From Planctomycetota bacterium (lineage in GTDB: Bacteria; Planctomycetota; UBA1135; UBA2386), in assembly GCA_027621295.1 (NCBI GenBank), contig JAQCBR010000011.1, forward strand, positions 1 through 56,141: a stretch of DNA of 56,141 nt, given 5' to 3'. The notes under the pieces were generated by a model. The model worked only from the letters and a program-made list of their open reading frames with translations. It was not told the origin of the DNA and made no database searches. The position numbers and the translations under genes are program-made. Position 1 is the stretch's first letter, and each line of letters begins with the position of its first letter. Below, piece after piece: positions 4,793 through 47,840 of the stretch.

Positions 4793-6223
4793 ATGCGCGC
4801 TGTGCGTCGCGTTTCCGACTGCGTGCTCGTGGGCCTCGCCGCGCTCGGCGGCTACCTGCTGCTCGCCCAGAGGACCTTCTACGGGGTCGACGGCTGGCGG
4901 CTGGTTCGCCGCGTGTCGACCGGGGACGTGCGGAGCGACATGCACCTGCTCTACAAGCCGATCGCGCATTGCTTCGCGCTCGTCGGAGAGAGCCTCGGGC
5001 TGTCGGTCTACGAATCGATGGTCCTCGCGAGCGCGGTCGGCACGGCGCTCGGCGTCGCGTTCCTCGTCGAGGCTGGGCGCCAACTCGGGCTGGATCGTCG
5101 CCGCGCGGTCCTGACCGCAGCCCTGGTCGGAGCGCTGCCCGGGGTGCTGTTCTTCGCGACCGTCGTCGAGCGGCACGGCCCGTTCTTCGGGTTCGCGGGC
5201 GCGACGGCGCTCGCGGCGGCATGTCTCGCCGCGCGGCCCGGGATCGGCCGTGGACTCTGGTTCGCGTGTGCGTGCACCGCGGCGTACGCCGCGCACTCGA
5301 CCGGGGTCCTGATGGTGGCGGCATTCCTGCCGTTCGCGTTCGTCCTCGCGTGGCGGAATCGGGGCGCGGAGCGGCCGCCGCTCGCGCCGTTCGTCACCGC
5401 GGCGGTCGGGACCGCGGTCGGCATGGTCGCAGCGCGCCGGCTCGGCGTGATGCTCGGCACCGTGCAGAACGAGGGCGACAACTTCGCGTTCTTCCTGCAG
5501 CACGCGGCGGTCCACGTCGGGCAGGTCGGCCAGCTCCCGGCGTGCCTGTGGAACGAGGTGCTGGTCGCGTTCTTCCCGGCGTCCTTGCTGTGGCTGTTCG
5601 CCCGGCCCCGGGACACGCTCCTGCTCGGGTCCGTCGCGGGGGCCATCGCGGTCTACGGGCTGTTCTCGTTCCTGATCCTCGGCTCGTTCGACGAGCGGGG
5701 GGCGTACGCGCTGCCGCTCGCCTGGCCGCTCGCGGCGGCCGCAGCGAGGGGCCTTCGGGTCGCGCAGATCGTGCGGGCCTTCCTCGCCGCCGGGCTCGTG
5801 TCGGTCGTCCTCGTGCTTCGTCATGACGACCGTCACCTCGACGCGTGGGACGAAGGGCTCCGCGCCCTCTCCGGGGCACGGGAGCCCTACCTCGTGGCCG
5901 CGGCCTGGGACGACTTCGAGTACGTGTTCCTGTTCCAGCCGGACGCGCGCTCCGGCAGCGGCTTCTACGACGCGTTCGACGCCCACGGTTTTCCGCTCGA
6001 GATGCTGCGCGGGAATGCGGCGCTCCTGCACGCGTTCCTCGGCGAGAGGTGCGCTTCGGGTCGCGTCCTGTTCGTCTCCGATCGCGGACTGGAGACGCTG
6101 CGCCAGCCGGCTGATCCGGGCAAGGCAGGGCCTGCAGTCGTCGAGGTGCTGGAGCAGGGCTTCGAGTTCGAGCGGGTCGACGCAGCGGGCTTCCACGGCT
6201 TCCGCCTGAACCCGAGGAGCTGA
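4793..6223 (+). CDS. Polytopic membrane protein, possibly a lipid-linked-sugar glycosyltransferase
   Basis: 476 residues from ATG 4793 (MRAVRRVSDCVLVGLAAL). About nine or ten hydrophobic segments are visible, including LVGLAALGGYLLLAQ (about 12-26), LVGALPGVLFFATVV, FACACTAAYAAHSTGVLMVA, VTAAVGTAVGMVAA, FFPASLLWLFA and LGSVAGAIAVYGLFSFLIL. A hydrophilic C-terminal domain of about 130 residues follows. The architecture resembles GT-C fold mannosyltransferase/PMT-like proteins, but I cannot point to a clear catalytic Asp-Glu loop, so the class is a guess. Its stop overlaps the start of the next gene by one base (TGATG), so the two are co-translated. It is divergent from the AGE epimerase, 77 bases apart, which hints at sugar metabolism. 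Confidence 0.6.
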   Translation: MRAVRRVSDCVLVGLAALGGYLLLAQRTFYGVDGWRLVRRVSTGDVRSDMHLLYKPIAHCFALVGESLGLSVYESMVLASAVGTALGVAFLVEAGRQLGLDRRRAVLTAALVGALPGVLFFATVVERHGPFFGFAGATALAAACLAARPGIGRGLWFACACTAAYAAHSTGVLMVAAFLPFAFVLAWRNRGAERPPLAPFVTAAVGTAVGMVAARRLGVMLGTVQNEGDNFAFFLQHAAVHVGQVGQLPACLWNEVLVAFFPASLLWLFARPRDTLLLGSVAGAIAVYGLFSFLILGSFDERGAYALPLAWPLAAAAARGLRVAQIVRAFLAAGLVSVVLVLRHDDRHLDAWDEGLRALSGAREPYLVAAAWDDFEYVFLFQPDARSGSGFYDAFDAHGFPLEMLRGNAALLHAFLGERCASGRVLFVSDRGLETLRQPADPGKAGPAVVEVLEQGFEFERVDAAGFHGFRLNPRS

Positions 6224-7594: not shown

Positions 7595-9688
7595 CTACTT
7601 CTCCTCGATCCGTACGAGGCGCGCCGCGTCGATCACGAGGAAACCCTCCGGGCTGACGCGCTCCAACTCGATGATCACCGGTTCCTCCATCGAGACCGAG
7701 AGCTGGGTCACCTCGAGCCACAGTCCGTCGATCGGCGGCGTCCTGCGCTGGTCCACGTCTGCGTCGACGGACGTCGAGCCGTGGCGAACGGACGCCTTCC
7801 CGACCGCGCGGTTGGGGTGGGGCTGCCACGCGAGCTGCGCGCTGTACTTCCCGGGCTGGAGCACGAAGATCTCGAACGTGGCCTTCGCCGTGCCGGGCGC
7901 AGCCTCGCCGTCGTGGCTGTAGCCCGCGCCGACGAAGGGCTTTACCGAGTCGCTCTGCTGCCAGGAGCCGGTGAAGCGCGCGGCGCGGTCGTCGACGACG
8001 CTGCCGGTCAGCTTCGCCGGATCGAGTCCGGTCGGTAGGGGCTTCTTCTCCCCGACCCATGCGAGGGTCTGGTCGGCGGCGAGCAGCTCCTTCCGGAGCT
8101 CGTCGTAGCGGACGTCCTGGACGACGCCGTTGCCGGCCAGCGCGAGGTGGGCTGCGGTCGCCGCGCTGTGTCCGAGCACCATGAACACCGGCTCCATCCG
8201 CGCCGAGCCGAACGCGATGTGCGTGGACGACAGACAGACTGGCACGAGCAGGTTCGTGCACTCTCCGCGCCGAGGAACGATCGAGCGGTAGGAGATGCCG
8301 TACGGCGTGAAGCCGTGGACCTGCACGTCGCCCTCGTTGCGGACCCGCCCCTGTGCGTCGACATATCGCTGCACGTTGTGCGAGTCCATGCCGTAGGCGC
8401 CGAGCCCGACCGGGTCGTCGACGACCTCGAGTCCTCGGCAGTGCTTCTCGGCGAGAACGACGTCCGAGACCATGCGCCGAGCCTCGCGGACGTAGAGCTG
8501 CGGCGGCCAGTTGCCGGTCTCCACGAACTCGTCCTTCGCGAGCCCCCACTTGTGGAAGTCCTTCTGCACGTCCGCCGGCACCCTCGGGTGGTTGGCCAGC
8601 GTCCAGAGCAGCCCCTGCGTGTAGTAGAGGTGGTCCGCGAAGATCCGGGCCCGCTCGTCCCAGTCGGCCTCCGGCCAACCGTAGCTGAGTCCGATCGCGT
8701 CGGTCGATATCGCGAAGTTGTTGTTCGTGTCGGTCTTGCGGTTCGGCATCAGCACCGGGTGCCACGGCACGCGGCGGTCACCGGCGTCGAAGTTCCGGAG
8801 CAGCAGCTCGAAGTCCTTCTCGTCGTAGCCAGGAGGCTTCGGCCAGGGCAACCGATTGTCGGGTGCATCCGTCGTGCACAGTCGGAAGCAGTAGGCCTGG
8901 ACGCGGTGGTCGGCATCGCCCTCTTCGCCGGGCCCGTCGGCGGCGACGTAGCGGAGCAGTCCGCTCGACGGGTCGCCCGGGACGACGTACGGATCGATGT
9001 CGTGCGTGAACTGGTGCTTGGTGGCGTTCTGGACCTGCACTCCGTCGAGCGTCTCGCCGTGCTCGGCGTTCGCTTCCCGTCCGACCCGGTACGAGACGCC
9101 AGCCTTCGCGAGCAGGTCGCCCTCGTAGGTCGCATCCACGAAGCAGCGCGCGCGGTAGATCCGTCCGTCGACCGTCCGGATCGCGACGATCCTCCCGTCC
9201 TCGACGGTCACGCCGCCGGCGCCGAGATCGAGCCGAGCGCCGTGGACGACCGGGACCCCGGCCTCGGTCAGCATCTCCTCGAACACCTGGAGTGCGGCCT
9301 TCGGTTCGAAGGTCCACGCGGCGTCCTCGTTCGGCCGATGTCCCCGGCCCTTGAAGTCCGCGGCGGCCTCTTGGACCCAGGCTGCGTCGTCGCCGTAGTG
9401 GGTCCTGAGCCGCTGGTAGAACTCGCGGCTGATGCCGCCGACCGCCGCCTTGTTGCCGATGTCGGTGGCGCCGAGGCCGGATGTGCTGAGGCCCCCGACG
9501 CGGTGGGTGGGTTCGAGGAGCACGACGCTGCGGCCGTGCCGGGCGAGCTGCACCGCGCAGGCGATGCCCCCCGAGGTCCCGCCGTAGACCACGACCTCGG
9601 GATCGTCCGGTCCCCCGGGGGCCGGAGCTGCACACGCGAGCAGGGCGGTCGAGAGGAAGAGAGCGAGCAGCAAGCGGAGTCGTTGCAT
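7595..9688 (-). CDS. Secreted FAD-dependent oxidoreductase (FAD_oxidored type)
   Basis: 697 residues. The start MQRLRLLLALFLSTALLACA contains a lipobox (LLAC), so it is a predicted lipoprotein. The dinucleotide-binding fold begins VVVYGGTSGGIACAVQLARHG and runs into VVLLEPTHRVGGLSTSGLG, typical of the FAD-dependent family widespread in planctomycetes and linked to carbohydrate or xanthan degradation clusters. Further family blocks are FVDATYEGDLLAKAGV, PYGISYRSIVP and LVPVCLSSTHIAFGSARMEPVFMVLGHSAA. The last ~140 residues form a beta-rich domain (GKYSAQLAWQPHPNRAVG) like the xanthan-lyase-type C-terminal domains on such proteins. It is divergent from the Gfo/Idh/MocA gene across 67 bases, which suggests shared regulation. 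Substrate unknown. Confidence 0.85.
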   Translation of the reverse strand: MQRLRLLLALFLSTALLACAAPAPGGPDDPEVVVYGGTSGGIACAVQLARHGRSVVLLEPTHRVGGLSTSGLGATDIGNKAAVGGISREFYQRLRTHYGDDAAWVQEAAADFKGRGHRPNEDAAWTFEPKAALQVFEEMLTEAGVPVVHGARLDLGAGGVTVEDGRIVAIRTVDGRIYRARCFVDATYEGDLLAKAGVSYRVGREANAEHGETLDGVQVQNATKHQFTHDIDPYVVPGDPSSGLLRYVAADGPGEEGDADHRVQAYCFRLCTTDAPDNRLPWPKPPGYDEKDFELLLRNFDAGDRRVPWHPVLMPNRKTDTNNNFAISTDAIGLSYGWPEADWDERARIFADHLYYTQGLLWTLANHPRVPADVQKDFHKWGLAKDEFVETGNWPPQLYVREARRMVSDVVLAEKHCRGLEVVDDPVGLGAYGMDSHNVQRYVDAQGRVRNEGDVQVHGFTPYGISYRSIVPRRGECTNLLVPVCLSSTHIAFGSARMEPVFMVLGHSAATAAHLALAGNGVVQDVRYDELRKELLAADQTLAWVGEKKPLPTGLDPAKLTGSVVDDRAARFTGSWQQSDSVKPFVGAGYSHDGEAAPGTAKATFEIFVLQPGKYSAQLAWQPHPNRAVGKASVRHGSTSVDADVDQRRTPPIDGLWLEVTQLSVSMEEPVIIELERVSPEGFLVIDAARLVRIEEK

Positions 9689-12451: not shown

Positions 12452-14395
12452 TCAGATCAGGCCCTTGGCCTCGAGTGCGTCCAGGATCTGTCGCGCGTTC
12501 GCCGTCGCGTCGAGCTTCTCGGTGTCGAGGCGGACGAGCGGTGCGGCCGGCGGTTCGTACGGTGCGTCGACGCCGGTCAGCCCCTCGATCTCGCCGCGGC
12601 GAGCGCGACCGTAGAGGTCGTTCTCGTCCCGCGACTCGCACGACTCGACCGACGCGTCGCAGTGGACCTCGTAGAACCTGTCTTCGCCGACGATGCGCTT
12701 GGCCTGGGCCCGGTCCGATTCGATCGGTGACACGAGCGCGACGATCGAGATCAGGCCGTGCTCGTTGCCGGACTTCGCCATCTCCGCGGCGCGTCGCTGG
12801 TGCTCCCAGCGGTCGGTGGCGGAGAAGCCGAGATCGCTGCTGATGCCGGCGCGGAGCTTCTCGCCGTCGAGCACCTGGGCGAGCTTGCCGCGCTCGAAGA
12901 GGGCCTTCTCGAGTTCGAAGGCGGTCGACGTCTTCCCGGAGCGGGGGAGTCCGGTCAGCCAGACGGTGAAGGGTCGCTGTCCGAGCCGTTCGCTGCGCTG
13001 CTCGGCGGTCACCGCACCGCGCTGTCCGCTCCGCACGTTGCTGCCCGCGTCGGCCGACGCGCGGCGACGGGCGAGCGTGCGCTCGGCGGGCGAACGGTCG
13101 ACGATCATCCCGCAGGCCATCGTCGCGTTGGTCAGCCTGTCGACCAGGATGAACGCACCCATGCCGCGGTTCTTGCTGTAGGCATCGACCGCCAGCGGGC
13201 GGACGACCTCGATCTCGACGCGGCCGATCTCGTTGAGCGTCAGTCGGTCGGCGTCCTCCTTGCGCATCGAGTTGACGTTCGTCCGGTAGCGCACCTGCGT
13301 GACCGTGCCGGACGTCGTGTTCGACGTGTGCTTGAGGACGTAGGTCTTGCCGGTCTCCATCGGCGTCTCGGACATCCAGACCAGCATGGCCTCGATGCGT
13401 GTCTCGAGGCGCGGCGTGTTCTGGACGGTCGAGAGCACGTCGCCACGGCTCACGTCCACCTCGTCGGTGAGCGTCACGACCACCGACATCGGCGCGTGGG
13501 CCTCCTGGATCGGACCGGCGAAGGTCTCGATGCTCTTGACCCGGCTCTGACGGCCGGAAGGCAGCGCGACCACTTCGTCACCGACGTGGACGATGCCCGA
13601 CGCGATCGTTCCCGCGTAGCCGCGGAAGTCGAGGTTGGGGCGGAGCACGTACTGGACCGGGAACCGGAAGTCGATCAGGTTGCGGTCGGACGCGATGTGC
13701 ACCGTCTCCAGGTAGTCGAGCAGCGCGGAGCCGCCGTACCAGGGCATCTCGGCCTGGGCACGCTCGACCACGTTGACGCCCTTGAGCGCCGACATCGGGA
13801 TGAAGTGGATGTCCTGGATCTGCAGCTTGCTCGCGAAGTCCTGGTAGTCCTCGCGGATGCGGTCGTAGACCTCCTCGCTGTAGTCGACGAGGTCCATCTT
13901 GTTGACCGCGACGACCACGTGCTTGATGCCCAGGAGCGAGCAGATGAACGAGTGGCGTCGCGTCTGGTCGAGCACGCCCTTGCGCGCGTCGATCAGGATG
14001 ATCGCCAGCTGGCAGTTCGACGCGCCCGTCGCCATGTTGCGCGTGTACTGCTCGTGGCCGGGCGTGTCCGCGATGATGAACTTGCGCTTGTCGGTCGTGA
14101 AGTAGCGATACGCGACGTCGATCGTGATGCCCTGCTGGCGCTCGGCTTCGAGGCCGTCGACGAGCAGCGCGAAGTCGACGTCTTCGCCGGTCGTCCCGTA
14201 TCGCTTGCTGTCCTTCTTGGCCGCGGCGAGCTGGTCCTCGTAGACCATCGCCGAGTCGTGGAGGAGGCGTCCGATCAGCGTGGACTTGCCGTCGTCGACG
14301 CTGCCGCACGTCAGAAGGCGCAGCAGGTCCTTGGTCCGGTACTTCTCGAGGTAGCCGTCGATGCCGAGACGGTCGAGTTCGGTCTGGATGCTCAT
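12452..14395 (-). CDS. cysNC: Bifunctional sulfate adenylyltransferase large subunit / APS kinase-like domain
   Basis: 647 residues. The N-terminal GTPase part has GSVDDGKST (31-39), DTPGHEQYTRNM and NKMDL, typical of CysN, the regulatory GTPase of ATP sulfurylase. EF-Tu-like barrels follow. From about residue 475 there is an APS-kinase-like domain: P-loop GLPRSGKT (482-489), DGEKLRAGI (510-518), DRWEHQRR (528-535), RDENDLYGRAR and LTGVDAPYEPP. The standalone CysC upstream keeps the canonical DGDNIRHGL and ENIRR at these sites; here N is replaced by K and H, so APS phosphorylation by this domain is doubtful. Its ATG overlaps the cysD stop by one base (TGATG). The operon is cysC-cysD-cysNC. 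Confidence 0.93.
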   Translation of the reverse strand: MSIQTELDRLGIDGYLEKYRTKDLLRLLTCGSVDDGKSTLIGRLLHDSAMVYEDQLAAAKKDSKRYGTTGEDVDFALLVDGLEAERQQGITIDVAYRYFTTDKRKFIIADTPGHEQYTRNMATGASNCQLAIILIDARKGVLDQTRRHSFICSLLGIKHVVVAVNKMDLVDYSEEVYDRIREDYQDFASKLQIQDIHFIPMSALKGVNVVERAQAEMPWYGGSALLDYLETVHIASDRNLIDFRFPVQYVLRPNLDFRGYAGTIASGIVHVGDEVVALPSGRQSRVKSIETFAGPIQEAHAPMSVVVTLTDEVDVSRGDVLSTVQNTPRLETRIEAMLVWMSETPMETGKTYVLKHTSNTTSGTVTQVRYRTNVNSMRKEDADRLTLNEIGRVEIEVVRPLAVDAYSKNRGMGAFILVDRLTNATMACGMIVDRSPAERTLARRRASADAGSNVRSGQRGAVTAEQRSERLGQRPFTVWLTGLPRSGKTSTAFELEKALFERGKLAQVLDGEKLRAGISSDLGFSATDRWEHQRRAAEMAKSGNEHGLISIVALVSPIESDRAQAKRIVGEDRFYEVHCDASVESCESRDENDLYGRARRGEIEGLTGVDAPYEPPAAPLVRLDTEKLDATANARQILDALEAKGLI

Positions 14396-26067: not shown

Positions 26068-27030
26068 GTGACGCCCCTCGAGACCCTCCAGAGCACGCTG
26101 AAGCTGCTGTCGGACGCCACCCGGCTCCGGCTGCTGTCGCTGCTTGCCCGCGACGAACTCGCGGTCCAGGAGCTGGTTTCGATCACCGGGCTCGCGCAAA
26201 GCCGGATCAGCAACCATCTTTCGCTCCTCAAGCGCGCCGGCCTCGTCCGCGACCGGCGGGAGGGGAGCTGGAGCTTCCACTCCCTCGTCGAGCCGACGGC
26301 GGCCGGTCCGCTGACGCCGGAGCTCTACCACGCGGTCCTCGAGCCCTACCTGCAGAGCAAGGACGGGCGCGCCGACTCGCAGGCCCTCGAACGCGTCCGC
26401 GAGCAGCGGCGCGAACGGAGCCGGAAGGCGCACGACGCCCTTGCCGACCGGTGGGTCGAGCTCGGTCAGGAGTTCCGAACAGGAGCTCTGCGGAGCGAGG
26501 CGCTCGGGGCTCTCGCGCCTGCCGGCTGGACGGTGGCGGACCTCGGCTGTGGTGCTGGCTTCTTGACCGCCTACCTCGCGGGTCGGTTCCAGCGGGTGAT
26601 CGCGGTCGACCACGCCGAGCGGATGCTCGCCGCCGCGCGTCGCCGGGTCGACGCCGCCAACGTCGAGTTCCGCCAGGGCGAGGTCGAGCGCCTCCCGCTC
26701 GAGGCTGGCGAAGTCGACGCGGCGTTCGCGAACCTCGTGTGGCACCACGTGGCCGACATGGACGGCGCGGCGCGTGAACTCCACCGGATCCTCAAGCCCG
26801 GCGGACGGGCGGTCATCACCGATCTAGCGCCGCACGACGCGGAGTGGATGCGGGAGGCGATGGGCGACCTGCGTCTCGGCATCCGACCGGATGCGGTGCT
26901 GGCGGTGATGGCGAGGGCTGGCTTCGTCGATGTCGCGCTCGACGACGTGCACGACGCCTACCGCGTCGAGAGCCCCGACGGTCGCTCCGCCGACCTGCCG
27001 ATGTTCCTCGTCCGAGCCCGCAAACCCTGA
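26068..27030 (+). CDS. ArsR-family regulator fused to SAM-dependent methyltransferase domain (SahR-like)
   Basis: 320 residues from GTG 26068. Residues about 8-70 are an ArsR winged helix (DATRLRLLSLLARDELAVQE, GLAQSRISNHLSLLKRAG). From about 150 a class I methyltransferase fold follows: VADLGCGAGFLTAYLAG (motif I), IAVDHAERML, FANLVWHHVADMDGA and LHRILKPGGRAVITDL. This ArsR-methyltransferase architecture is that of SahR-type regulators, which in Proteobacteria respond to S-adenosylhomocysteine and control methionine-cycle genes (recalled). No metal-binding CxC of classic ArsR is present. The gene lies 87 bases upstream of ahcY, the SAH hydrolase, on the same strand, and an inverted repeat covers its own promoter. 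Autoregulation and control of ahcY by SAH are therefore likely. Confidence 0.85.
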   Translation: MTPLETLQSTLKLLSDATRLRLLSLLARDELAVQELVSITGLAQSRISNHLSLLKRAGLVRDRREGSWSFHSLVEPTAAGPLTPELYHAVLEPYLQSKDGRADSQALERVREQRRERSRKAHDALADRWVELGQEFRTGALRSEALGALAPAGWTVADLGCGAGFLTAYLAGRFQRVIAVDHAERMLAAARRRVDAANVEFRQGEVERLPLEAGEVDAAFANLVWHHVADMDGAARELHRILKPGGRAVITDLAPHDAEWMREAMGDLRLGIRPDAVLAVMARAGFVDVALDDVHDAYRVESPDGRSADLPMFLVRARKP

Positions 27031-27117
27031 TCCAGCGGGGGCACGCCGACGCAGTGCTGCCCGCTCCCCGTTCTTCTGTTTCGCAACGAATCCCAACCCC
27101 AACGCAACAAGCAAGCG

Positions 27118-28581
<1,464 letters not shown>

Positions 28582-28590
28582 TCGCCGTGC

Positions 28591-28606
28591 GGACCGGCGA
28601 CGGTCC
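28591..28606. terminator. 6-bp hairpin with GCGA tetraloop after ahcY
   Basis: GGACCG and CGGTCC pair perfectly around GCGA (28597-28600), 9 bases after the ahcY stop. It is the first in a row of four inverted repeats and may help end the ahcY transcript. Confidence 0.4.
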
Positions 28607-28620
28607 GACGACGGTGGCAG

Positions 28621-28670
28621 TCGTCTCGTTCGGGCGGTGACCGGAAGCGGTCGCCGCCCTTCCGAGACGA
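28621..28670. repeat. 50-base compound hairpin downstream of ahcY
   Basis: TCGTCTCG (28621-28628) pairs with CGAGACGA (28663-28670). Inside it a symmetric TTC/TTC internal loop separates a 12-bp stem, GGGCGGTGACCG (28632-28643) with CGGTCGCCGCCC (28648-28659), closed by the tetraloop GAAG. One pair is U-G on the plus strand. Such a long, ordered structure is not expected by chance. It could be a terminator, a processing signal or a small structured RNA. Confidence 0.6.
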
Positions 28671-28698
28671 GAGCCTGCGCGCTGTTCGCGGCAGGCTC
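28671..28698. repeat. 8-bp hairpin abutting the compound hairpin
   Basis: GAGCCTGC (28671-28678) and GCAGGCTC (28691-28698) pair perfectly, with an inner CGC/GCG stem and a TGTTC loop. It begins on the very next base after the 50-base hairpin. A further GCCGC/GCGGC stem lies at 28729-28743, just before the transporter gene. Confidence 0.5.
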
Positions 28699-28768
28699 TG
28701 GCTCGCTCTGCGCCGAGCCTGTGAGAGCGCCGCGTGCAGCGGCGGCTCCCAGCAGCGACGATGGGGCG

Positions 28769-29230
28769 ATGAGCGGACTGCCCGTCGTCTACGCCCTGGT
28801 CGCGATCCTGGCCGGTTGCATCATCGCCATCCAGCCCGGGATCAATGCGCAGCTCGCCAAGCGGCTCGAGCACCCGATCCAGGCGAGCCTCGTGTCGTTC
28901 AGCTGTGGGTTGGCGTTGCTCGTCGTCGCCTGTCTCGGGCTCGGTCAGAGGCTGCCGCGTCCCTCGATGCTGGAGTCCGCGCCGGTCTGGATGTGGATCG
29001 GTGGAGGCACGGTGGGCGCGATCTTCGTGACGACCTCCCTGATCGCTGCGCCGCGCCTCGGTGCGGCCTACTGGGTCTCCCTGATCGTCGCCGGACAGAT
29101 GCTCGCGTCGCTGTTGCTCGACGAGTTCGGCTGGCTCGGGTTCGCGCGGCGGAGCGTCGGCTGGCAAGGATGGGTGGGCGCGGCTTTCATCGTCGCCGGC
29201 GTCGCGATGGTCTCCCTGCGTCGCGGGTGA
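28769..29230 (+). CDS. DMT-superfamily small membrane transporter (DUF606/YdcZ-like)
   Basis: 153 residues from ATG 28769 (MSGLPVVYALVAILAGCIIA). Five hydrophobic segments are visible: VVYALVAILAGCIIAIQ, ASLVSFSCGLALLVVACLGLG, APVWMWIGGGTVGAIFVTTSLIA, AAYWVSLIVAGQMLASLLLDEFG and WVGAAFIVAGVAMVSL. The GINAQLAKRLEHPIQASLVSF loop and the late LLLDEFGWLG block are typical of DUF606 half-size EamA relatives, which often work as pairs. Only one is here, so a homodimer or a distant partner is possible. The substrate is unknown. Its upstream region is the hairpin-rich stretch after ahcY, so expression may depend on read-through from ahcY or a hidden promoter. Confidence 0.85.
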   Translation: MSGLPVVYALVAILAGCIIAIQPGINAQLAKRLEHPIQASLVSFSCGLALLVVACLGLGQRLPRPSMLESAPVWMWIGGGTVGAIFVTTSLIAAPRLGAAYWVSLIVAGQMLASLLLDEFGWLGFARRSVGWQGWVGAAFIVAGVAMVSLRRG

Positions 29231-29273
29231 TCCCCGAAACTCCGCATCGCCGTGCCGTCCGTCGCTCTGCAGA

Positions 29274-30065
29274 TCAGCGGTTCGGCGGAGTGTCGGACGC
29301 TTCGCGGAACAGGAAGTCTGCGCGCAGGATCGTCACCGGCTTGCGCGGCTTGCCGTCGGCTCCACCCTGGGCCTCGAGCGTGGCCAGCACCGCCTCGCCC
29401 GTCTCCAGTTCGCCGAACACGGTGTGGATGCCGTCCAGCCAGGGTGCCGGACGCAGCGTGATGAAGAACTGGGAGCCGGCGGTGTTCGGCCCGGCATGGG
29501 CGGCGCTCAGGATGCCCCTTCGGTCGTGCTGCGGAGGTGGCTCCGGGATCTCGTCGCGGAGTGCGTAGCCCGGCCCTCCCTGGCCGTCGCCCTTCGGGCA
29601 GCCGCCCTGCGCGACGAACCCAGGCACGATCCGATGGAAGGTCAGGCCGTCGTAGAAGCCGGCTCGGGTCAGCCACAGTGCGTTCGTCACGTGAGCGGGC
29701 GCGAGATCGGGGCGCAGGCGGAAGCGGATCGCGCCATGGTTGGTCTGCAGCACCCAGATGCACTCCGCGCGCCGGGGCAGCGGCAGCGACGCGGGCGGCT
29801 CTGGCATGCGGGTCCGCCAGTCGGCGACCCCGCGGTCGATCGGGTGCTGCTGGAGATGTGCGTCGAGCGCCGCGAACACCGGCGATGGTGCGCCCGCGGG
29901 ATGGAGCGAGATCTTGTCCTTCGGTCTCCGAGGGGACGGGGTCGCATCCGCCAACTTCATGCCAGGAGTCGCCGGCGGGGGTGAGTCCCAGCGGCGTTCG
30001 GGCGGCGCCGCGCAAGAGGCGAGGGCGAGCGCGGCGAGGACGGTCGAGCGGGCGCGGTCTCGCAT
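29274..30065 (-). CDS. Cyclophilin-type peptidyl-prolyl isomerase, lipoprotein
   Basis: 263 residues from ATG 30065 (MRDRARSTVLAALALASCAAPP), a lipoprotein signal with LASC lipobox. About 80 residues of Pro/Ala-rich linker and a poorly conserved segment precede the cyclophilin domain. Blocks: IRFRLRPDLAPAHVTNALWL, GFYDGLTFHRIVPGFVAQGG with the catalytic Arg (FHRI), NTAGSQFFITLRPAPWLDG, and HTVFGELETGEAVLATLEAQ. It catalyses cis-trans isomerisation at Pro during folding of exported proteins. A longer reading upstream would run into tRNA-Leu, so that part is not coding. tRNA-Leu lies 42 bases upstream on the same strand. Confidence 0.92.
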   Translation of the reverse strand: MRDRARSTVLAALALASCAAPPERRWDSPPPATPGMKLADATPSPRRPKDKISLHPAGAPSPVFAALDAHLQQHPIDRGVADWRTRMPEPPASLPLPRRAECIWVLQTNHGAIRFRLRPDLAPAHVTNALWLTRAGFYDGLTFHRIVPGFVAQGGCPKGDGQGGPGYALRDEIPEPPPQHDRRGILSAAHAGPNTAGSQFFITLRPAPWLDGIHTVFGELETGEAVLATLEAQGGADGKPRKPVTILRADFLFREASDTPPNR

Positions 30066-30107
30066 GGGGCGGAGCCGGCTCGGAGCCGGAAGGGGAACAG
30101 CGAGGTG

Positions 30108-30193
30108 TGCGGGGAGAGGGGCTCGAACCCTCACTCCGGTTTCCCGGAAGCGGATTTTAAGTCCGCTGCGTCTGCCGATTTCGCCATCCCCGC
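30108..30193 (-). tRNA. tRNA-Leu (anticodon TAA)
   Basis: 86 bases. The minus strand starts GCGGGGATGGCGAAATCGGC, with a 7-bp acceptor stem pairing to CCCCGC plus discriminator A at 30108. The anticodon arm is GCGGACTTAAAATCCGC with anticodon TAA. A class II variable arm (TTCCGGGAAACCGGAGT) and the T-arm with GGTTCGAGCC complete the cloverleaf. CCA is not encoded. TACTCT 11 bases upstream of the 5' end may be the -10 box. Confidence 0.97.
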
Positions 30194-30313
30194 GCGGTCG
30201 GAGCAGAGTAGCCGTTGCCTGCGAAGGGATCGACCTCGCACCGCCGCAGTTGGTGCTCCAGCGGTGGAGCCCCGCGTCGAAGGGGCGCTGGGCAGCGGCC
30301 AACGAGCGGATCG

Positions 30314-30523
30314 TCAGCCGATGTGCGGTCGGACCACGTCCGCCGCGTCGCTGCCCTCATCGCCCACGCCGGTGACCTCGGAGAGCCGCCCGGTGAGCGC
30401 GTAGAACAGTGCCTTGACGAAGACCAAGGGGATGTAGACGCCGACGACGACGAGGGCTGCGCCCGCGATCAGGACGGTCATCAGCGTCCAGAAGACGATC
30501 GTGCTCAGGATCCGGGCAGCCAT
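30314..30523 (-). CDS. Small membrane protein
   Basis: 69 residues from ATG 30523 (MAARILSTIVFWTLM). A single long hydrophobic run, IVFWTLMTVLIAGAALVVVGVYIPLVFVKALFYAL, spans the membrane once or twice. A short hydrophilic tail (TGRLSEVTGVGDEGSDAADVV) follows. An ATG at 30544 would add seven residues, but those codons overlap a perfect TATAAT box, so the shorter start is preferred. I do not recognise a family. It lies between tRNA-Leu and the divergent DJ-1/PfpI gene. Confidence 0.6.
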   Translation of the reverse strand: MAARILSTIVFWTLMTVLIAGAALVVVGVYIPLVFVKALFYALTGRLSEVTGVGDEGSDAADVVRPHIG

Positions 30524-30533
30524 CGGCAGTTCG

Positions 30534-30539
30534 ATTATA
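30534..30539 (-). promoter_or_regulatory. TATAAT -10 box of the small membrane protein gene
   Basis: A perfect TATAAT on the minus strand (forward ATTATA), ending 10 bases before ATG 30523. AT-rich hexamers are rare in this GC-rich DNA. No good -35 was found at the usual distance. Confidence 0.4.
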
Positions 30540-30622
30540 ACCATCGGCCGACGGCCCCTTCGGACTGCAGGCTTCGCCGGCTGCCCCGCCGCGGCCGCGG
30601 CCGCGGGCTGGGAGACACCGAC

Positions 30623-31207
30623 ATGACCACGAATCCCCCTCGCGTCCTCGTGCCGATCGCCGACGGGAGCGAGGAGATGGAGTTCACGATCGTCGTGGAC
30701 GTGCTGAGGCGTGGCGGCGTCGAAGTCGTCACCGCCGGGCTCGCATCACCAGGGCTCGCCGTCGAGTGCAGCCGAGGAGTCCGAATCGTCCCGGATCGCG
30801 CGCTGGCAGAGGTGGTCGGGCCGTTCGACGCCGTCGTGCTCGTCGGGGGTCTCGGCGGGGCGGATGCGTTCGCTGCGAGCGAGATGCTTCGTGGAGCGGT
30901 GGTCGCGCACCGCGCGGCGGGTCGACTGACCGCTGCGGTCTGCGCCGCACCGCGGGTGCTGCTGGCCTACGGGCTCGGTGCGGGTTCGAGAATGACGTCC
31001 CACCCGAGCGTCCGGACCGCGTTCGACGGCGTGTCCGAATGGGTCGATGCGCCGGTCGTCGAGGATGGAATGCTGGTCACCAGCCAGGGGCCTGGCACGT
31101 CGTTCGCGTTCGCGCTGACGCTGCTGAGGCGGCTGCGTGGCGCGGACGTCGCCCAGCAGGTCGAGTCCGGTCTGATGCTCACCGGGCCGGTGATCGGTCC
31201 GGGCTGA
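30623..31207 (+). CDS. DJ-1/PfpI-family protein
   Basis: 194 residues from ATG 30623, with GGGAG about 10 bases upstream as a ribosome-binding site. RVLVPIADGSEEMEFTIVVD contains the conserved Glu that activates the nucleophile. LTAAVCAAPRVLLAYGL is the nucleophile elbow with the reactive Cys. The C-terminal TSQGPGTSFAFALTLLRRL is typical of the DJ-1/ThiJ group. Members act as glyoxalase III-like hydratases, chaperones or deglycases, and possibly oxidative-stress sensors via the Cys. Cytoplasmic. It is divergent from the small membrane protein gene, and a rho-independent terminator for tRNA-Cys lies after its end on the other strand. Confidence 0.92.
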   Translation: MTTNPPRVLVPIADGSEEMEFTIVVDVLRRGGVEVVTAGLASPGLAVECSRGVRIVPDRALAEVVGPFDAVVLVGGLGGADAFAASEMLRGAVVAHRAAGRLTAAVCAAPRVLLAYGLGAGSRMTSHPSVRTAFDGVSEWVDAPVVEDGMLVTSQGPGTSFAFALTLLRRLRGADVAQQVESGLMLTGPVIGPG

Positions 31208-46965: not shown

Positions 46966-47003
46966 GGCGAGCGCGCCGCGACGCGGTGGTCCGCGGCGGG
47001 CAT

Positions 47004-47033
47004 TTTTTACGGGCCGGTCCGGGGTGTCACAAG
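47004..47033 (-). promoter_or_regulatory. Promoter of the PSD1-DUF1501-AKR operon
   Basis: TTGTGA (47033-47028) and TAAAAA (47009-47004) on the minus strand are 18 bases apart, 39 bases upstream of ATG 46965. The A/T run is exceptional in this GC-rich DNA. It lies in the 104-base divergent region shared with the SDR gene. Confidence 0.55.
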
Positions 47034-47069
47034 GAGGGGTGGCTATCGTCCCCCGGGCACCCAAGCACG

Positions 47070-47840
47070 ATGGCAGACAGACGCTCGATGTTTTCTCTCG
47101 AAGGCAAGGTCGCCCTGGTGACGGGCAGCAGCAAGGGGCTCGGCCGCGCGATGGCGACCGGCCTCGGGCGCGCTGGCGCGAAGGTGGCGTTCAACTACCG
47201 GAACGGCGAGGAGCAGGCGGAATCCGCCTACGCGGCCTACCGTGCCGAGGGCCTCGAGGGAGGGCTCTACCGCGCGAGCGCGATCGACGAGGCCGAGATC
47301 GCGTCGATGTGCGACGCGATCGAGAGAGACCTGGGTGCCATCGACATCCTGGTGGTGAATGCGACGCCGGACCAGCCGCAGCGGCCGATCGAGGACTACG
47401 ACTGGGCATTCTACCAGTCGATGCTCGACTTCTTCGTCAAGTCTCCCTACCTGCTGACGCGGCGCGTGCTGCCTCGGATGAAGGCCAAGCGTTCGGGCCG
47501 CATCCTGAACATCACGTCGGAGGTCTTCCACCGCGGCGTCGGGAACTTCAGCGCCTACGTCGCGGCGAAGGGTGCGCAGAACGGCTGGACCCGGAGCATG
47601 GCCACCGAGCTCGCTCCCTGGAACATCACCGTCAACATGATCGCTCCGGGTTGGATCCCGGTGGAGCGGCACGCGAACGATCCCCAGGAACAGAAGGATG
47701 GCTACCGCGCGCTGATCCCGATGGACCGCTGGGGAGTGCCCGAGGACGTGATCGGCGCGACGGTGTTCCTCGCGAGCGATGCGGCGTCCTTCGTCACCGG
47801 TCAGAACATCTGCGTGAACGGCGGCATGACCGTCGGCTGA
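47070..47840 (+). CDS. Short-chain dehydrogenase/reductase
   Basis: 256 residues from ATG 47070 (MADRRSMFSLEGKVALVTG); ATG 47088 (MFSLEGK) is a possible shorter start. Classical SDR motifs: TGSSKGLGRAMATGLGRAG (cofactor binding), VVNATPDQP in place of NNAG, the catalytic Ser in ILNITSEVF, and YVAAK (Tyr-Lys). C-terminal GWIPVERHANDPQEQKDG and NICVNGGMTVG are typical of the 3-oxoacyl-reductase-like/sugar dehydrogenase group. NADP preference is suggested by basic residues after the Gly loop. The NNAG change to VNAT may alter the active site. It precedes a sugar ABC importer, separated by 72 bases with a strong palindrome, so sugar or cyclitol oxidation is likely. Confidence 0.9.
   Translation: MADRRSMFSLEGKVALVTGSSKGLGRAMATGLGRAGAKVAFNYRNGEEQAESAYAAYRAEGLEGGLYRASAIDEAEIASMCDAIERDLGAIDILVVNATPDQPQRPIEDYDWAFYQSMLDFFVKSPYLLTRRVLPRMKAKRSGRILNITSEVFHRGVGNFSAYVAAKGAQNGWTRSMATELAPWNITVNMIAPGWIPVERHANDPQEQKDGYRALIPMDRWGVPEDVIGATVFLASDAASFVTGQNICVNGGMTVG

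Follow-up and report, generated by a model that had tools for sequence, protein, structure and literature searches.

A row of GC-rich hairpins behind ahcY in a Planctomycetota genome is probably a U-less 3'-end unit of the ahcY transcript

We analysed a 56,141-nt stretch of DNA (hereafter the window) from a Planctomycetota bacterium (GCA_027621295.1, contig JAQCBR010000011.1), in which ahcY and a ydcZ-like gene follow each other on the + strand. The gap between them (28582-28768) measures 187 bases, has a GC content of 74% and is largely filled by inverted repeats. The genes and the predicted structures are as follows.

27118-28581, + strand: ahcY, encoding adenosylhomocysteinase (TIGR00936, 607.7 bits against a cut-off of 497.6; PF05221 and PF00670)
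28582-28617, + strand: hairpin H1, -24.1 kcal/mol, starting directly after the ahcY stop codon (+1)
28621-28670, + strand: hairpin H2, a compound hairpin and the dominant element, -40.3 kcal/mol, starting at +40 after the stop
28670-28699, + strand: hairpin H3, a AGAGCCTGC/GCAGGCTCT stem that abuts H2, with A28670 common to both
28700-28719, + strand: hairpin H4, a GGCTCG/CGAGCC stem, -8.9 kcal/mol
28725-28748, + strand: hairpin H5, a GAGCGCCGC/GCGGCGGCTC stem with its core at 28729-28743, -15.6 kcal/mol
28671-28748, + strand: a long imperfect hairpin, the alternative that replaces H3-H5 in the minimum-free-energy structure
28769-29230, + strand: ydcZ-like gene for a putative inner membrane exporter (PF04657, E 9.7e-41, residues 8-146)

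The last bases of ahcY are CTACTGA (28575-28581). For ydcZ, the ATG at 28769 was also the start chosen by a codon-usage gene finder. The ydcZ frame stays open upstream through H2-H5 as far as a GTG at 28637 (28637-29230, 197 aa), but this long form is unlikely because the Pfam domain begins at residue 8 counted from the ATG. TA dinucleotides are missing from the gap, and a promoter scan confined to the sigma-70-like type gave no match there, which makes it unlikely that ydcZ or a small RNA has a promoter inside it. Upstream of ahcY, the gene at 26068-27030 combines an ArsR-type helix-turn-helix and a methyltransferase domain in one protein.

According to the folding model, H1 and H2 form with near certainty, whereas H3, H4 and H5 are unreliable as individual hairpins. 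The inner stem of H1 (GGACCG-GCGA-CGGTCC, 28591-28606) has a predicted pairing probability of 1.00. In H2, a 3x3 internal loop separates an outer stem of 8 bp from an inner one of 12 bp, which includes one G-U pair and is capped by a GAAG loop; the two stems pair with probabilities of 0.92 and 1.00, respectively. The values are far lower for H3 (which folds at -17.3 kcal/mol over 28670-28697), for H4 and for the core of H5, each of which reaches 0.34, or 0.08, 0.21 and 0.08, respectively, if only bases up to 80 nt apart are allowed to pair. The core of H5 comprises 5 bp and extends with a bulge to 28725-28748. H3-H5 and the long hairpin, which is closed by GAGCC at 28671 pairing with GGCTC at 28744, are mutually exclusive, and both are populated in the ensemble. 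While 3 nt separate H1 from H2, H3-H5 follow at 0-5 nt and are only partly populated. The original prediction had described four separate stems, the second and third directly adjacent. All four are present where it had placed them, and the adjacency was confirmed; the separateness holds for the sequence and only in part for the structure, in which the last stems compete with the long hairpin. A fifth stem, H4 (28700-28719), was absent from its list.

The gap was compared with dinucleotide-shuffled copies of itself, a check of folding energy that the original prediction had proposed. It proved more stable than all 500 shuffles on either strand, with a minimum free energy of -123.3 on the + strand against -98.6 +/- 4.5 in the shuffles (z -5.5, 0/500 as low) and of -117.4 on the - strand against -89.3 +/- 4.7 (z -5.9, 0/500 as low). 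Among 1245 segments of 187 nt taken from the 56 kb, the one beginning at 28582 has the lowest minimum free energy, tied with the one beginning at 28576, and only three segments, all overlapping it, have a lower z.

We extended the comparison to 422 kb of the same genome, made up of the window and 20 further stretches; this sample includes two 2-kb overlaps (L126/L127 and L128/L129), so that a few gaps are counted twice. The summed hairpin energy of the ahcY-ydcZ gap (-94.2) ranks first in the 422 kb. One shuffled copy of the sample reaches -89.9, and the number of hairpins alone is therefore unremarkable at 74% GC. H2, on the other hand, takes second place when the 199 intergenic gaps no shorter than 30 nt are ranked by their best hairpin. 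The rare part of the array is thus the -40.3 kcal/mol hairpin H2; to find several hairpins in a row is only mildly unusual in DNA so rich in GC.

Strong hairpins after stop codons are a general feature of this genome. Gene ends were taken from our own codon-usage gene finder, which called 348 genes in the 422-kb sample, and not from annotation. Of the 99 stop codons with enough room behind them, 31 were followed within 70 nt by a hairpin of -18 kcal/mol or lower, compared with 15.3 in shuffles. Coding controls match their shuffles, both for the last 70 nt of genes (31/348 vs 28.1) and for coding middles (21/348 vs 25.4), and a weaker enrichment is seen directly upstream of start codons, where such hairpins occur in 18 of 180 stretches of 70 nt (10.7 in shuffles). 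When gaps were sorted by the orientation of the flanking genes, hairpins of -20 or lower had their largest relative excess in convergent gaps (8 of 19, with 2.2 expected), followed by co-directional gaps (30 of 132 vs 15.5), and hardly any excess in divergent ones (12 of 48 vs 10.4). None of the 31 strong post-stop hairpins is followed by a U tract, defined as at least five T in the next 10 nt. Many transcript ends in this genome appear to be marked by GC-rich hairpins without U tracts, the ahcY array being among the strongest. An all-against-all BLAST of 217 intergenic stretches from the 422-kb sample revealed no recurrent 3' element, the top matches being mostly self-palindromes or overlaps between stretches.

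The ahcY array follows the same pattern. H2 is succeeded by GAGCCTGCGCGC, with one T in the next ten bases, and since no U tract follows, it is not a canonical intrinsic terminator. Correspondingly, a search for canonical Rho-independent terminators gave 0 terminator-like matches in 27000-30800; the array shares with them the GC-rich hairpin after the stop and differs in having no U tract. It comes closer to the hairpin clusters of Gupta and Pal (2021, PMC8355165), who, in the part of their report drawn on here, proposed from RNA-seq of 13 genomes that closely spaced hairpins (with less than 15 nt between them) in the vicinity of the stop act as terminators, with poly-U not required and with clusters favoured at high GC. 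Like these clusters, the array comprises several hairpins spaced by less than 15 nt, at high GC and without poly-U. The first of them lies less than 20 nt from the stop, and both H1 and H2, only 3 nt apart, begin inside the 80-nt limit set for such clusters. Unlike them, it is predicted from sequence, and H2 (8 + 12 bp) is longer than the short stems that the report presents as typical. A further parallel is found in the Streptomyces terminators of the TERMITe atlas (PMC12207403), where they are described as poor in U and as forming the most stable hairpins. The ahcY hairpins are likewise long, GC-rich, very stable, poor in U and located after a coding sequence, whereas the Streptomyces terminators, as that source describes them, still have 3-4 U among the first 10 nt, and their 3' ends have been mapped. 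The original prediction had argued that the array holds more structure than one terminator needs. We do not consider this a strong argument, because clusters of U-less post-stop hairpins are known from the literature as proposed terminators, particularly in genomes of high GC (PMC8355165).

Assistance by Rho is possible, since the window's own genome (G000) carries two Rho-like genes, which score 477 and 458 bits, both under the TIGR00767 cut-off of 509.

G000:C262:5950-7203: Rho-like gene, with a TGA inside the matched frame
G000:C148:12466-13578: Rho-like gene

A search at the DNA level through 154 genomes of the order gave no sequence homologous to the gap. The two foreign matches at E <= 1e-4, of 26 and 50 bases, lie in long open frames (L119, L120), and none of the relatives searched belongs to the same genus. 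With no conserved hairpin sequence, there is no direct way of showing selection on it, and conservation of hairpin position was tested in place of the sequence covariation that the original prediction had proposed. ahcY is present in 29 of the 34 family genomes. The family sample comprised 30 ahcY places, of which 27 were used together with the window, which replaced L089; L115 and L118 were dropped, their C-terminus being missing. A hairpin of -20 kcal/mol or lower lies within 80 nt of the ahcY stop at 20 of these 28 loci, compared with 4.4 in shuffles and a maximum of 9 in 200 rounds of shuffling; the other 8 loci have none. In four of the 28 (L092, L096, L107 and L108), the hairpin is a copy of a dispersed REP-like element with the core GTTGGAGCCGACGCCCGCAACGGGCGCGGCTCAAC, a further copy of which follows an ahcY end in G025. 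After removal of the copies of this element, a hairpin is found behind ahcY at 17 of 24 loci, behind panB at 0 of 19 and behind an NHL-repeat gene at 0 of 24, a contrast that is weakened because panB and the NHL-repeat gene may sit inside operons or close before other genes, so that these controls may understate the hairpins of a typical transcript end. Both controls are orthologues from the same genomes, named from their sequence and not by a family search, with 80 usable nt at 23 of 28 panB loci (30 found, two partial ones left out) and at 29 of 30 NHL-repeat loci.

In other lineages, 39 of 58 ahcY loci carry a hairpin of -20 or lower, compared with 3.8 in shuffles. These 58 were drawn from 80 loci, 22 being skipped since the C-terminal pattern was missing or the sequence short; the U-tail count among them (2/48) is not meaningful because the A/T tracts of low-GC loci were counted as stem. 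Beyond the post-ahcY hairpin, the sequence differs among the family relatives. What is conserved in the family is the position of a hairpin after ahcY, not its sequence. Together with the post-stop enrichment in the sampled part of this genome, this kept position supports the suggestion of the original prediction that the array is an element of the ahcY 3' end, acting in processing, stability or termination. Comparing hairpin strength at one gene's 3' end with that at other genes of the same genomes also provides a usable test where covariation is impossible.

The REP-like element behind some of the relatives' ahcY genes was found in 14 of the 154 genomes, 13 of which belong to the family of 34 and none of which is the window's. 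It was listed at 95 places, of which the weakest (for example in G008 and G129) may be chance matches. Its covariance model is based on 23 copies and has 19 pairs, 3 of them with changes on both sides. The copies lie at the following loci.

L096:2935-3020: element copy at one of the four ahcY loci
L141-L150, L154-L163, L165-L170 and L205-L264: further loci with element copies in relatives

Five of the 95 matches were not placeable on a locus. An open frame of at least 60 codons ends just upstream of 77 of the 90 placed copies, the other 13 having no upstream frame of 60 codons, and 62 of these 77 frames end in a Tyr codon. Terminal Tyr is rare elsewhere: of 325 complete genes from the window's genome, 1 has it, as do 4 of 85 other genes at the same loci. 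In 62 copies, the distance from the stop to the element (model start) is 13-17 nt, and these have in common the motif CTAYTRR over the last codon and the stop, with C at -4 in 92% of cases compared with 58-65% at the preceding third codon positions. Wherever their ends could be located, the panB and NHL-repeat orthologues almost always close with Tyr-stop, with or without an element, and their motif is therefore independent of it. These observations agree with insertion of a REP-like palindrome directly behind CTAYTRR sites; an element placed at a fixed distance from CTAY-stop genes would give a well-defined insertion-target rule. The bases before GAGC in the element are mostly GTTG, GTAG or GCTG, and thus resemble the GTAG tag that marks one REP superfamily; the cited source reports this superfamily in Planctomycetes and also close to gene 3' ends (PMC3733652). 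RAYT-type transposases are present in some of the carrier genomes, not in all. In L107, the first 200 nt after ahcY also contain a long run of CT dinucleotides downstream of the element copy.

The element does not explain the window's own array. One could imagine that dispersed extragenic palindromes (REP/BIME) were inserted by chance after ahcY here as well, given that such a copy forms the post-ahcY hairpin in the four relatives, that the GTAG-tagged palindromes likewise lie near gene 3' ends (PMC3733652), and that the window's ahcY ends in the same CTACTGA site at which relatives carry the element; yet the hairpins at this site are unrelated to it. Unlike the REP/BIME palindromes as described in that source, the array is single-copy. 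Its only full-length match in its own genome is the query itself, the 40 others being short (15-44 bases), and the seven of these that we inspected are all located inside long open frames or at their margins. Moreover, the covariance model of the element finds nothing in this genome, and neither does a search for a Y1_Tnp (RAYT-type) transposase (PF01797, 0 matches in an assembly that is 90% complete). We regard a chance insertion of this type as largely refuted and extremely unlikely.

Two further suggestions of the original prediction, a small RNA and a leader of the transporter gene, fared poorly. At gathering score, Rfam 15 gave nothing in or near the array, and two tRNAs only in the whole window. 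The best sub-threshold match was a microRNA family (E 0.014, 24.8 bits against a gathering score of 95) and the best bacterial small RNA by bits was Cupriavidus-1 (E 0.79, 19.7 bits against 45.5). We took the sub-threshold matches, mir-1181 and Cupriavidus-1 among them, as chance in GC-rich palindromes. A discrete small RNA from the 3' part of ahcY, either transcribed from a promoter of its own or released by processing, would agree with the compact and strong structure of about 180 nt that ends just before ydcZ. However, we consider it very unlikely, in view of the lack of an Rfam family at gathering score, of a sigma-70-like promoter match and of any TA in the gap, as well as of sequence conservation in the 154 genomes of the order.

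A structured leader or riboswitch-like attenuator of ydcZ, in which H3 and a pairing of the left arm of H3 with the right arm of H5 would be the alternative states, appears highly improbable too. Although H3-H5 and the long hairpin do offer such alternatives just upstream of ydcZ, no Rfam riboswitch was found at gathering score, with sub-threshold matches at chance level. In addition, ydcZ occurs in 4 of the 34 family genomes, and its closest relative (G021, 63% identical) is separated from a preceding esterase-like gene by 14 nt, in which there is no array.

A role between the two genes is somewhat easier to envisage, if still rather unlikely. ahcY and ydcZ would then be made as a single transcript, with no termination, in which the hairpins protect the ahcY part so that AhcY greatly exceeds YdcZ. 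The REP sequences between malE and malF act as such intercistronic protecting elements. The two genes are co-directional, and with neither TA nor a sigma-70-like match in the gap, ydcZ may need read-through; this promoter argument is possibly blunted by promoters of other types, outside the scan, or by a ydcZ promoter inside ahcY. Against an intercistronic role, the family keeps a hairpin after ahcY even though the downstream sequence differs and ydcZ, looked for at the level of whole genomes, is mostly absent.

Considering all the above results, we believe that the array is probably a clustered, GC-rich, U-less hairpin terminator or 3'-end stabiliser of ahcY. It belongs to a kind already described for GC-rich bacteria, yet is unusually strong. 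RNA polymerase leaving ahcY would transcribe H1 and then H2 within the first 89 bases past the stop codon. The two hairpins would stall the polymerase, so that most transcripts would end there, either intrinsically or with the help of Rho, and they would also block 3'-to-5' exonucleases and thereby yield a stable ahcY message. H3-H5, or the long hairpin replacing them, may serve as a back-up, and the remainder getting through would account for a low read-through into ydcZ. The structure of the array, its position, the post-stop enrichment in the genome and the retention of a post-ahcY hairpin in the family were computed here; that transcripts end at H1 and H2, and how their effect is split between termination and protection, we infer. 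Counting against a 3'-end function are the missing U tract, the unreliable formation of H3-H5, the eight family loci that have no such hairpin behind ahcY, and a folding excess that is as large on the - strand as on the + strand. In its favour, H1 and H2 taken singly are more stable on the + strand (-24.1 and -40.3) than on the - strand (-22.5 and -37.3), and the G-U pair of H2 would become an A-C mismatch on the other strand.

A more elaborate version of the 3'-end function can be proposed, which we regard as improbable. Gene-specific selection would keep an exceptionally strong hairpin at the ahcY 3' end despite full sequence turnover between genera, and the array would in addition work as a tunable valve. 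H1 and H2 would set the 3' end of ahcY, while switching of H3-H5 between three hairpins and one long one would set the read-through into ydcZ, thus tying export to the methyl cycle. In its simpler form, as a terminator or stabiliser, the ahcY array would be a clear example of how transcript ends can be marked without U tracts in a very GC-rich lineage.

Among the other hairpins of this genome, a CGTTAC(G/C)G-like tail was seen after three strong post-gene ones, too few to judge.

L136, gap 5352-6100, - strand: post-gene hairpin with the tail
L136, gap 7946-8219, - strand: post-gene hairpin with the tail
L132, gap 13495-13655, - strand: post-gene hairpin with the tail

Finally, a GC-rich inverted sequence at 46966-47087 of the window is followed by TTTTTT, a canonical-looking U tract of a type that is rare in this genome.
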